Shown here one piece after another: positions 10,011 through 13,394 of a stretch of DNA of 25,310 nucleotides; positions within the stretch are counted from its first letter, which is position 1, and the number at the start of each line of letters is the position of its first letter. The notes beneath the pieces are model-generated. The model was not told the DNA's origin, ran no database searches, and saw only the letters and a list, made by a program, of their open reading frames with translations. The position numbers and the translations under genes were made by a program. The stretch is from a virus, in IMG/VR virus record IMGVR_UViG_3300008448_000574, positions 1 to 25,310 of that record. One strand, given 5' to 3'.

Positions 10011-10803
10011 AATTACCCAGTTTAACGGTATTAGGAAGAGTAAGTAGTTCTATCTCTGCCTCTGGATGCATGATCTTATAGGTCTCGTACGTATGTAAGA
10101 ACATATCAAAGTACTCATCGACAGTCTTTTTACCTTCAATTATTTCCCATCCTGCGCCTTGCATTTTTTTGCCACTTTTGTCTGGGCCTCGTTTTGTAGA
10201 TTTAAGCCATATGATACCGTTACGATCCACTTTTTGGAGATATCTTTCTTCATAGGCTTTAGTGTAGGCTGACATTTGTAAGTAGTAGCTTTCATGAACT
10301 GAGTTTGATGTTTTAATATCTAATAACCATTTCTCTCCGTTTATATCAACTAGAAGGTCTAATGTTCCAGAGTACTTGTGAGTATCTGAATACATGAACT
10401 CTTCTGACAAAAGAAGTGTAGGTTTGTATGTGGTCCAAAAATCTGTAAAGCCAAGGATCATCTTCCATACGTGAGTATGATAGTTTACCTTACCATCTGG
10501 TTCGATCCATCGTATCTCCTCACCTCGTAAGAATTTTTCAACGGCGTTGTGGACTTGAGTTCCCTCATCGCCAGCGCGACGCATAACAATATCAGCATTA
10601 TGCCCCATATCTTTAAGCCAAGTTTCAAAGAAGTGTCCCTTAGGGAAATAGCCAAGGATAGTAGTGACCGAAGGGTAAAAGACCCCAGGCGATCTTTGAT
10701 AATATCTCGCATCATGTAAAGTGATTTGTCTAAGTTCAGGATCTGTTTCTACAATTCGTTTTAAGAACTTGTCTCGATAGACGTTCTTATGTTGCTCAAT
10801 CAT
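10009..10803 (-). CDS. RecB/Cas4-type PD-(D/E)xK nuclease
   Basis: 264 residues. Motifs in order: H85 in GTQVHNAVEKFLRGEE, E134/E135 in SEEFMY, GTLDLLVD (146-153, with D149), LLDIKTS (160-166, catalytic D162 and K164) and QMSAY (176-180). This is the standard PD-(D/E)xK exonuclease set of the RecB/Cas4 group, which cuts DNA in recombination, repair or replication. It starts in a four-base overlap with the primase stop, so primase and nuclease are probably co-translated. It has no leader like its downstream neighbours and probably acts in the cell on replicating DNA. Confidence 0.85.
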   Translation of the reverse strand: MIEQHKNVYRDKFLKRIVETDPELRQITLHDARYYQRSPGVFYPSVTTILGYFPKGHFFETWLKDMGHNADIVMRRAGDEGTQVHNAVEKFLRGEEIRWIEPDGKVNYHTHVWKMILGFTDFWTTYKPTLLLSEEFMYSDTHKYSGTLDLLVDINGEKWLLDIKTSNSVHESYYLQMSAYTKAYEERYLQKVDRNGIIWLKSTKRGPDKSGKKMQGAGWEIIEGKKTVDEYFDMFLHTYETYKIMHPEAEIELLTLPNTVKLGN

Positions 10804-11729
10804 ATTAGTTGTATTTTCTTGAGAAGTAGATCACTAAACGATAGTGGCTTCGCATGGTGTAGTAACTTAGTCATGTTTTCAAAACCAAGTTCAGAAGGAT
10901 CTTTCCCTTCTAGTTCAATTAAATATACTTCCTTCCCATGATTGAGAAGGTTTTGTGAATAATCTAACGCTTCTTTCAAAGCATCTTTGTCTAATGCTAA
11001 ATATATAGTTTTTACTTCAGACTCTACTAATTTTAACATGAGTGACTTAGGAATAGTCTTACCAAATAAAGGTACAGCATTTCTACGAATAGCAATCGCA
11101 TCAAACATACCTTCACATAATATCACAGGAACAGACCAATTAATGAAGTACTCTAGTCCTATAATCTCTGTTTTATTGCAGCTTGGAGCATCGTATTTAC
11201 GAGACGGATCCTTTTCAAATGATCTAGCAATGAAATAGTTTACATTGCCGTCTTTGTCATAGGATGGTACCACAATGCGATTCCTATACCTACCTGTCTT
11301 ACAATAGCCTATATTATATTTGACTATGTCGTTTACAGATATACCTCTTTTCTTTAAGTATGTTAATGCGTGTCTAGTCTCTAGTGACTTATCTGGGTTT
11401 GCTAGAGATAAGAACTCTTGAGGTAGACTTACTTTGTCTGGTTTAATGGTATCAATCTTAGTATTGTCTCCTTGAAAGTAGTTCTTCATCTCGATGATTT
11501 TCTCTGTAGGAGCATCTATCTTCTTTAAGAGTGATACTGGTGTTTTACCTTTTGTAGGAGGGTGGCAAGTCCAACAATTGTATTGTCCTGACTTAATATT
11601 CACTATAAGCTTAGGATTATGATGCTTACATACTGGACAATAAAAAGCGTAGTCCATTGTTGTTTTAGAACCTTTGCCTTTACCCAGAACTGTTTCCAAT
11701 AAACCTAGTACTAGTAATTCTTTATCCAT
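10800..11729 (-). CDS. DNA primase, gp61/DnaG-like
   Basis: 309 residues. The zinc-binding region has C31-x2-C34 with nearby His and C52-x2-C55 (CPVC ... CWTC). The core includes YRNRIVVPSYDKDG (148-161) and the TOPRIM-like motifs: CEGMFDAIA (205-213, metal-binding E206) and LALDKDA (244-250, D247/D249). These match bacterial DnaG and T4 gp61 primases; T4 gp61 is about 342 residues, so this is slightly short. It would synthesise RNA primers for lagging-strand replication. It is the first gene of the minus-strand arm, divergent from the plus-strand operon, and starts after an AT-rich region. Confidence 0.88.
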   Translation of the reverse strand: MDKELLVLGLLETVLGKGKGSKTTMDYAFYCPVCKHHNPKLIVNIKSGQYNCWTCHPPTKGKTPVSLLKKIDAPTEKIIEMKNYFQGDNTKIDTIKPDKVSLPQEFLSLANPDKSLETRHALTYLKKRGISVNDIVKYNIGYCKTGRYRNRIVVPSYDKDGNVNYFIARSFEKDPSRKYDAPSCNKTEIIGLEYFINWSVPVILCEGMFDAIAIRRNAVPLFGKTIPKSLMLKLVESEVKTIYLALDKDALKEALDYSQNLLNHGKEVYLIELEGKDPSELGFENMTKLLHHAKPLSFSDLLLKKIQLI

Positions 11730-11763
11730 TATCTAAATATAAGACAAAAAAACGACATAAAAA

Positions 11764-11773
11764 AATATTTATT
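11764..11773 (+). promoter_or_regulatory. Candidate promoter element AATATTTATT
   Basis: AATATTTATT on the plus strand, flanked by A-runs, about 320 bases before the first plus-strand ATG (12088). If the set of such motifs are promoters, this one would transcribe the structured region and the plus operon. Only recurrence supports it. Confidence 0.33.
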
Positions 11774-11853
11774 AAAAAAAATTTTTCTGTTTCAATAATT
11801 TGTTGTATATTAGTTCCATACTAATGCTGTATACTCAGGCTCTATGCCATAGC

Positions 11854-12021
11854 TTGGTTAAATTCCATGAGTGAGTTTTAGAATGAGTAACCAATGCAGC
11901 TACCAGGAGCTAAGACTAAGCACAATGCTTCAGGTATATAAATATAATTGACAGATAAGTTTTAGAATAATATCGGCCATATCCGACGGTTTAGTCCGCT
12001 AAAGGGTTCTAAATATAAACT
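11854..12021 (+). ncRNA. Candidate structured RNA, no known family
   Basis: Helices seen by eye: TTGGTTA (11854-11860) with TAACCAA (11888-11894), seven perfect pairs; AAGCA-CAA-TGCTT (11918-11930); a long-range helix TTTAGAA (11961-11967) with TTCTAAA (12007-12013), extended by AGT/ACT after a bulge; inside it TCGG-CCATAT-CCGA (11973-11986) and TTTAG-TCCG-CTAAA (11990-12003, a UNCG-type loop). The last three form a compact three-way junction. The strand is uncertain because these helices also form on the complement. No match to a riboswitch, tmRNA or ribozyme core was recognised, and no covariation data are available. Confidence 0.35.
11874..11968 (+). repeat. Direct repeat pair AGTTTTAGAAT
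   Basis: The 11-base string AGTTTTAGAAT occurs at 11874-11884 and 11958-11968, 84 bases apart. The second copy is the 5' side of the long-range helix with 12007-12021; the first copy could compete for the same partner, giving an alternative fold. There is no spacer-repeat periodicity, so it is not CRISPR. Confidence 0.45.
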
Positions 12022-12087
12022 GCCAATGAGAAACAAAGTCAATCACACTATAAACAAAGGCGGAATACCTTTAAACTAGCCTATTGT

Positions 12088-12255
12088 ATGAATCTAGAAG
12101 ATATTGAAATAGATGAAAACAAAATAACCGAAGAGCAATTAGAAGCGCTATATATTTATTTGTCAATGACTTACGATACCATGAGTGAAGATGAAAAAAA
12201 AGTTTGGTATCACATAATGGAAAAAATAGATAAAGAATTTTATGAGCAAAATTAA
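12088..12255 (+). CDS. Small acidic protein, unknown
   Basis: 55 residues (MNLEDIEIDENKITEEQLEA ... ending MEKIDKEFYEQN). Acidic and helical, with a central YIYLSMTYDTMSEDEKK segment. No domain was recognised. It is the first gene of the plus arm. Its stop overlaps the start of the CxxC thioredoxin-fold gene by 14 bases in another frame, as expected for a translationally coupled phage pair. The ATG at 12088 follows the structured intergenic region with no Shine-Dalgarno. Confidence 0.55.
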   Translation: MNLEDIEIDENKITEEQLEALYIYLSMTYDTMSEDEKKVWYHIMEKIDKEFYEQN

Positions 12256-12562
12256 ATTGTTATTACTAGAAGGTTGTAGTAAGTGTCAAAAATTAAAAGA
12301 AGCTTTAGGTAAAAATTACATTCACTACGAATACGAAATTTGTAAGTCCGATACCATTATATGTGACTCTATTGAAGATTTAACAGGCTGTTCTAATTAT
12401 CCTGTGGTATTAAAAATAATAAATAAATCTTTTATAGAAGAAGTGGCATATATAACGGACAAATATGAGGATGTTGGAAAAACATTACAATTAAATAATC
12501 GTGTAAGAGGAAAAGCATTTTACTCTATAGATAAATTGATAGAGTACGTAATAAATTTGTAA
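12242..12562 (+). CDS. Glutaredoxin/thioredoxin-fold protein
   Basis: 106 residues. Near the N-terminus is CSKC (C12-C15) after a short beta strand (IKLLLLEG), followed by a helix (QKLKEAL). Y53-P54 (YPVV) supplies the cis-proline typical of thioredoxin folds. Glutaredoxins in T4 (NrdC) reduce ribonucleotide reductase, which is the likely general role; the partner is not in this window. The rest of the protein is divergent. Confidence 0.68.
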   Translation: MSKIKLLLLEGCSKCQKLKEALGKNYIHYEYEICKSDTIICDSIEDLTGCSNYPVVLKIINKSFIEEVAYITDKYEDVGKTLQLNNRVRGKAFYSIDKLIEYVINL

Positions 12563-12758: not shown

Positions 12759-13394
12759 ATGAAACAATTAAGTCCTGAACAGATTTTAGAGAATCTGAAT
12801 AAGTTCTATTCTATTATCGATAAGTATATTACTGGAGATAGAAAGGATAAACTTATAGATTTGTATAAAGGTATTGAAGAGACTCTGGCTATATCTCCTG
12901 CCTCTACCCGTATTGGCCACCATAATTGCTTTGCTGGTGGTTATGTTGATCATGTCATTAGAGTTATTGAAGCATCTTTGGTATTTGAAAAGGTTTGGGA
13001 TAGATTTGGCCAGAATAAAGACTATACTACTGAAGAATTAGTATTCTCTGCTATTAACCATGATTTGGGTAAATTAGGTACAAATGAACAACCTATGTAC
13101 TTACCTAATGATTCTCAGTGGCATATTGAGAAACAAGGTATGTTATATAAGTACAATCCAAATATAACTCATATGAGAGTAGCAGATAGAAGCTTATTCT
13201 ATTTACAGAAAGCTGGTATAGAAGTCTCAGAGAATGAGTTCTTAGCAATCAAGTTACATGATGGTCTTTATGAAGAGTCTAATAAAGCTTATTATATAAC
13301 TCATAATAAAGATACAGAATTAAAATCAAATATAACCTATATACTTCACCAAGCTGATTTGATGGCTAGTAGGGTAGAAAATCAAATTAAATAA
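12759..13394 (+). CDS. HD-domain phosphohydrolase
   Basis: 211 residues. It has the full metal-binding set of HD hydrolases: H65 (GGYVDHVIRV), H101-D102 (INHDLGKLG) and D200 (LHQADLMA). H167-D168 (KLHDG) is a further pair of the kind seen in some HD families. HD proteins hydrolyse phosphoester bonds, including nucleotides, cyclic dinucleotides and (p)ppGpp. The substrate here cannot be told from sequence. It is followed two bases later by the membrane-anchored small gene. Confidence 0.82.
   Translation: MKQLSPEQILENLNKFYSIIDKYITGDRKDKLIDLYKGIEETLAISPASTRIGHHNCFAGGYVDHVIRVIEASLVFEKVWDRFGQNKDYTTEELVFSAINHDLGKLGTNEQPMYLPNDSQWHIEKQGMLYKYNPNITHMRVADRSLFYLQKAGIEVSENEFLAIKLHDGLYEESNKAYYITHNKDTELKSNITYILHQADLMASRVENQIK

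Follow-up and report, generated by a model that had tools for sequence, protein, structure and literature searches.

The gap between the two gene arms of this virus record contains a conserved structured RNA of about 250 nt, as judged by comparing its sequence with those of its relatives. Its simplest reading is as the leader of the rightward operon, with which it is predicted to be co-transcribed. On balance, it probably acts in cis, as a riboswitch-like or protein-bound leader that would control the start of that operon. The RNA is a new class within a known kind, the structured leader RNA, and a literature search for a description of it found none.

The window, meaning the whole 25.3 kb stretch of DNA analysed, is a virus record with two oppositely directed gene arms. 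The leftward arm contains primase, exonuclease and nucleotide enzymes, and the rightward arm runs on to baseplate genes. The 358 bases between them (11730-12087) are flanked by primase on the - strand and a 55-aa ORF on the + strand, confirming the position between divergent arms reported in the initial annotation. A coding test of 11730-12087 in the window found no ORF of at least 50 aa, arguing against a protein-coding gene there, and profile and family searches gave no confident family match for the 55-aa ORF. Behind the RNA, the operon opens with this ORF; next come a glutaredoxin-like protein, from a weak Pfam match, and a metal-dependent phosphohydrolase with HD-type motifs, at 12242-12562 and 12759-13394. 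The element had been described as richer in G/C than the coding DNA around it. At 37% GC, the RNA does exceed the whole window (32%) and the genes to its right (30%), but it is barely above the primase gene (35%); an AT-rich stretch adjoins the intergenic element. By primase, the nearest isolates, at about 42% identity, belong to the Flavobacterium phage genus Immutovirus. The features of the locus and of the RNA are as follows.

10800-11729, - strand: primase gene (PHROG 47, E = 2.8e-45), first gene of the leftward arm and synteny marker.
11782-11813, + strand: putative promoter upstream of the RNA, a T-rich box plus TATATTAG (11806-11813), conserved in relatives.
11821-12073, + strand: whole conserved structured RNA, about 250 nt, supported by pair counts in a 40-copy alignment and closed at its 3' end by PK2.
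11826-11832/11894-11900, + strand: P1, with both-side changes in 6 of 7 pairs.
11833-11837/11884-11888, 11841-11844/11879-11882 and 11846-11849/11872-11876, + strand: P2a, P2b and P2c, covarying, 86-97% of cells paired.
11855-11867, + strand: P2d, a hairpin UGG(UUAAAUU)CCA, apparently T-loop-like, with loop consensus U[GU]NRA[AU]U.
11901-11904/11933-11936 and 11906-11910/11927-11931, + strand: P3, with an A-A mismatch between its two parts, 98% of cells paired.
11945-11954/12020-12029, + strand: P4, the outer helix, with both-side changes in all 10 pairs and pairing in 70% of cells; swapping partners gives z = 6.8 (not a probability).
11962-11968/12006-12012, + strand: P5, closing the three-way junction, with both-side changes in all 7 pairs, 93% of cells paired.
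11973-11976/11983-11986, + strand: P5a, 100% of cells paired.
11987-11989/11996-11998, + strand: P5b, the third arm, CGG/CCG, 88% of cells paired.
11914-11917/12037-12040, + strand: PK1, GACU in the P3 loop with AGUC.
12000-12005/12068-12073, + strand: PK2, UAAAGG in the junction strand after P5b with CCUUUA.
12056-12072, + strand: alternative local hairpin, AAAGG 12056-12060 with CCUUU 12068-12072, covarying in its letters and excluding PK2.
12088-12255, + strand: the 55-aa ORF that opens the rightward operon, kept behind the RNA in relatives.

The evidence for a conserved fold comes from an alignment of 40 diverse copies, on which a model of 60 pairs has 88.1% of cells paired, as against 30-42% after sliding. 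Because this alignment also contributed to deriving the structure, the structure is favoured over its slid versions; the shuffles and swap tests are less subject to this bias. Both-side changes occur in 38 pairs and 290 cells (27 pairs and 91 cells in the shuffles), and none of 500 shuffles matched the model on any of five covariation measures. In a tree-based covariation test, the top canonical pairs were 11962-12012, 11968-12006, 11827-11899, 11966-12008, 11836-11885 and 11849-11872; the pair 11962-12012 alone exceeded every null simulation, the other top pairs having E values of 0.1-0.3. Since the individual pairs mostly fall in that range, the covariation case depends on the whole pair set. 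RNAalifold alone finds most of P2, P3, P5 and P5a, as well as a portion of P5b. Folding the single window sequence to minimum energy gives P1, P2a, P3, P4, P5, P5a and P5b, whole or largely. The energy check on both strands that had been proposed did not favour the element: the folding energy of 11821-12087 is no better than that of dinucleotide shuffles on the + strand (z = 0.04) and just slightly better on the - strand (z = -1.31). The thermodynamic test by itself is uninformative. Scanning against the Rfam 15 covariance models gave no match at the gathering score, the best permissive match (E = 1.5) being to eukaryotic families and far below threshold, and ARAGORN found no tRNA or tmRNA, the T-loop-like hairpin being no more than a motif. 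Thus, the proposal of a candidate new phage ncRNA that fits no known family agrees with both the strong covariation of the homologous intergenic regions and the Rfam scan.

Within the fold, P2d is invariant in A1, and its closing pairs change together to CGG/CCG in L200 and L209. In P3, the pair 11908-11929 varies between A-U, C-G and U-G, and the pair 11907-11930 is G-U in 37 of 40 copies. The alignment also redraws several structures seen in the single sequence. The three-way junction reported at 11961-12013 holds for its closing helix and first arm, which covary in relatives, but not for its UCCG arm: the tetraloop hairpin UUUAG-UCCG-CUAAA occurs in 11 of 40 copies, with the pair 11993-12001 present in 4 of 35. 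The seven-pair helix UUGGUUA/UAACCAA (11854-11860/11888-11894) exists in the window and is kept in just 2 of 40. Likewise, the direct repeat AGTTTTAGAAT, supposed to let two folds compete for one partner, is double in 1 of 40, so fold competition through the repeat is wrong; mutually exclusive partners do exist for another segment, 12068-12073. The proposed extent, 11821-12060, had the right start, and the element runs slightly further, to 12073. Three other candidate features were rejected. The pairing of a possible group I intron (GACUA...UAGUC) is not maintained on inspection of the alignment, the letters of a possible mini-ORF at CCATGAGYGAG are accounted for by P2b/P2c pairing, and a T4-type late promoter TATAAATA within the RNA is not conserved in the 40 copies.

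Two pseudoknots complete the structure. PK1 scores z = 3.4 against swapped partners and appears in other copies as GAC/GUC, GAU/AUC, GACA/UGUC and GAUC/GAUC; some subfamilies (L135, L144) show no clear sign of it. PK2 is, from these comparisons, the stronger of the two, as every one of the 69 distinct sequences can pair here, with variants such as UAGGG/CCCUA, CAGGG/CCCUG, UAAGGG/CCCUUA, UAGAG/CUCUA and UAUAG/CUAUA. In its swap test the mean score was 13.59, compared to 10.54 for the swaps (sd 0.30, highest of 1000 swaps 11.44); swap tests do not give probabilities, as related sequences share letters, although more than one independent combination of letters contributes. In most copies, PK2 ends with its 3' strand 9-17 nt upstream of an ATG, the spacing in the window being 14 nt; in a few it is 20-33 nt. 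The same bases can also form the local hairpin, which gives the tail a choice of two mutually exclusive partners in most copies. The local hairpin is found in about three quarters of copies, with variants UAUAGG/CCUAUA, GUUAGG/CCUAAU and UUAACAG/CUGUUAA, and is absent or weak in other subfamilies; among 61 copies, 9 are without the upstream local hairpin and 5 more have a weak one. In one subfamily, the tail is able to pair with a GGG near the start.

The intergenic region recurs in dozens of primase-related IMG/VR contigs, mostly at 73-100% identity and with long near-invariant blocks. Search patterns built from these blocks matched 39, 78, 35 and 92 stretches in scans of IMG/VR, the later patterns adding more diverged copies (L188, L191, L200, L202, L204, L208 and L209). 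In every locus with readable neighbours the gene order is the leftward primase, the RNA and a common rightward operon made up of the 55-aa ORF, the glutaredoxin-like protein, sometimes a 58-aa ORF, the phosphohydrolase and further genes. The one exception, L189, is a GC-rich contig in which the neighbouring genes are missing, and it was set aside as a chance match. Each record tested has a single copy, contigs of 162 and 180 kb included, and the RNA was never found at any other locus among those with readable neighbours. Some variation is seen in the genes nearby. Next to primase, L128, L133, L135, L137, L144 and relatives carry a long ORF of up to 1055 aa at the position taken in the window by a 264-aa exonuclease. 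In L120, the phosphohydrolase is separated from the following conserved gene by an additional 80-aa ORF, at 1551-1794 after the RNA motif.

Outside these contigs, BLAST of four diverse versions of the RNA against phage isolate records gave nothing or short chance matches. A pattern scan of GTDB genomes gave 13 matches with flanks unlike the RNA, which were taken as chance, and a whole-genome covariance-model scan of Flavobacterium phage immuto, the nearest isolate by primase (42%), found no credible copy. Two sister groups (L038/L039 and L042-L081) share this gene set but have a 130-180 nt leader instead of the RNA. On the primase tree, in which the deep forks are not all well supported, these groups require two label changes, and two losses from an RNA-bearing ancestor are the simplest reading. 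Upstream of primase, L042-L081 have another leader, in which CCTTCTACTACAGGGGGAAAACAACAGCAGAC is conserved ahead of the first ATG.

The boxes upstream of the RNA resemble the -33/-7 boxes of Bacteroidota, from which transcription would be expected to start near 11820. Because the boxes look like Bacteroidota ones, the host is probably a member of that phylum, and the RNA is carried by a large clade of uncultured myoviruses, probably with Bacteroidota as hosts. The leftward primase promoter and the rightward RNA promoter (11735-11813) look like mirror images, CTAAATATAA... and ...TATATTAG, and BLAST in relatives gives an inverted self-similarity between them of 71-76% over about 55-83 bases. 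No intrinsic terminator was found on the + strand in 11600-12300, so the RNA does not show the terminator of its own expected of a free-standing ncRNA gene, and inspection found no promoter between the RNA and the first gene. The RNA is read as an operon leader because of the conserved promoter-like block directly upstream and the lack of a + strand terminator after it. On the - strand, a terminator-like site at 11972-11987 is the P5a hairpin read in reverse, followed by ATTATTCT, and is probably incidental.

A cis-acting switch at the operon start is favoured because the PK2 tail precedes the first ATG, covaries universally and has an alternative partner in most copies. When PK2 forms, the tail before the first start codon would be docked into the junction; with the tail in the local hairpin, or paired with the GGG near the start in the one subfamily, the junction would be released. 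The choice of state may be set by a small molecule, or by a phage or host protein binding the invariant core, and the switching could control translation, or the progress of RNA polymerase, at the operon start. Consistent with a leader, the conserved fold occupies the predicted 5' leader of a protein-coding gene and, in readable loci, always stands ahead of the same operon. However, the two-state switch is not universal, as the local hairpin is missing or weak in some copies, and in a few the ATG stands farther from PK2 than usual. It also counts against the leader reading that two sister groups manage without the RNA and that constant synteny is equally expected of a vertically inherited trans-acting RNA. 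A more specific version, possible but tentative, is a phage-only riboswitch class that would sense a metabolite or an infection signal and time the rightward operon toward virion genes; given the phosphohydrolase and glutaredoxin-like genes behind the RNA, the signal is perhaps a nucleotide.

Instead, the RNA could be a trans-acting phage ncRNA, processed from the operon transcript and serving in host takeover, counter-defence, or RNA polymerase or ribosome binding, with PK2 merely closing its 3' end. A large, compact and highly conserved fold with invariant loops would suit such a role, as would its behaviour as a separate module, missing from two sister groups that keep the operon. We nevertheless regard it as rather unlikely, given the lack of a terminator behind the RNA or of a promoter ahead of the first gene, the position of PK2 immediately ahead of the start codon in most copies, and the restriction of the RNA to one locus. 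Less probable still is a leader for processive antitermination, in which the nascent RNA would bind RNA polymerase to allow terminator read-through along the long rightward operon, by analogy with HK022 put RNA. The RNA does lie directly behind a promoter at the start of a long operon, and PMC9378689 describes cis-acting RNA elements for processive antitermination, but the RNA is much larger than put and antitermination has no need of the link between PK2 and the start codon. The location between divergent arms, beside primase and adjoining an AT-rich stretch, might instead suggest a replication origin or a protein-binding site with structure in single-stranded DNA. An element acting at the DNA level alone is very unlikely, because G-U pairs are maintained, as at 11907-11930, which points to RNA; the promoter and the direction of transcription are also conserved. 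Finally, the folding energy on the + strand, the same as that of shuffled sequence, is what chance helices in conserved DNA without functional structure would give, but we attach almost no weight to this reading in view of the shuffles, the low pairing of the slid structures and the PK2 swap test.

If a ligand were found for the favoured cis-acting leader, it would establish a new riboswitch class, so far phage-only. To our knowledge, few large RNA folds are conserved in phages alone, and RNA-level control in Bacteroidota phages is little known. The RNA is common in environmental viral data, with one pattern matching 92 stretches. Its secondary structure is well defined and includes two covarying pseudoknots, its location permits a direct reporter test of function, and the sister phages with the same promoter and operon provide a natural comparison without the RNA.

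Several known systems share features with the proposed leader. Like the pseudoknot-type translational riboswitches, such as the SAM-II and preQ1 classes, it is a leader RNA with invariant core residues and with the 3' strand of a pseudoknot just ahead of the start codon, a tail that here is alternatively paired in most copies. It differs in having no match to the Rfam models, in its much larger size with a second domain and PK1, and in being phage-only so far. The large phage and environmental ncRNAs of the GOLLD type are likewise large folds recognised by covariation in phage or environmental sequence; the RNA described here has no Rfam match, is shorter and is linked to one operon. In phage T4, a small pseudoknot in the leader ahead of gene 32 is bound by gp32 for translational control. 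Both are pseudoknots in phage mRNA leaders, but the present RNA is far more elaborate and precedes an unrelated 55-aa ORF. The put RNA of HK022 is short, with two hairpins, and is a phage cis RNA at an operon start, just as the RNA here lies behind the promoter of a long operon; the two are likened by operon position alone, the present RNA being about 250 nt long with two pseudoknots.
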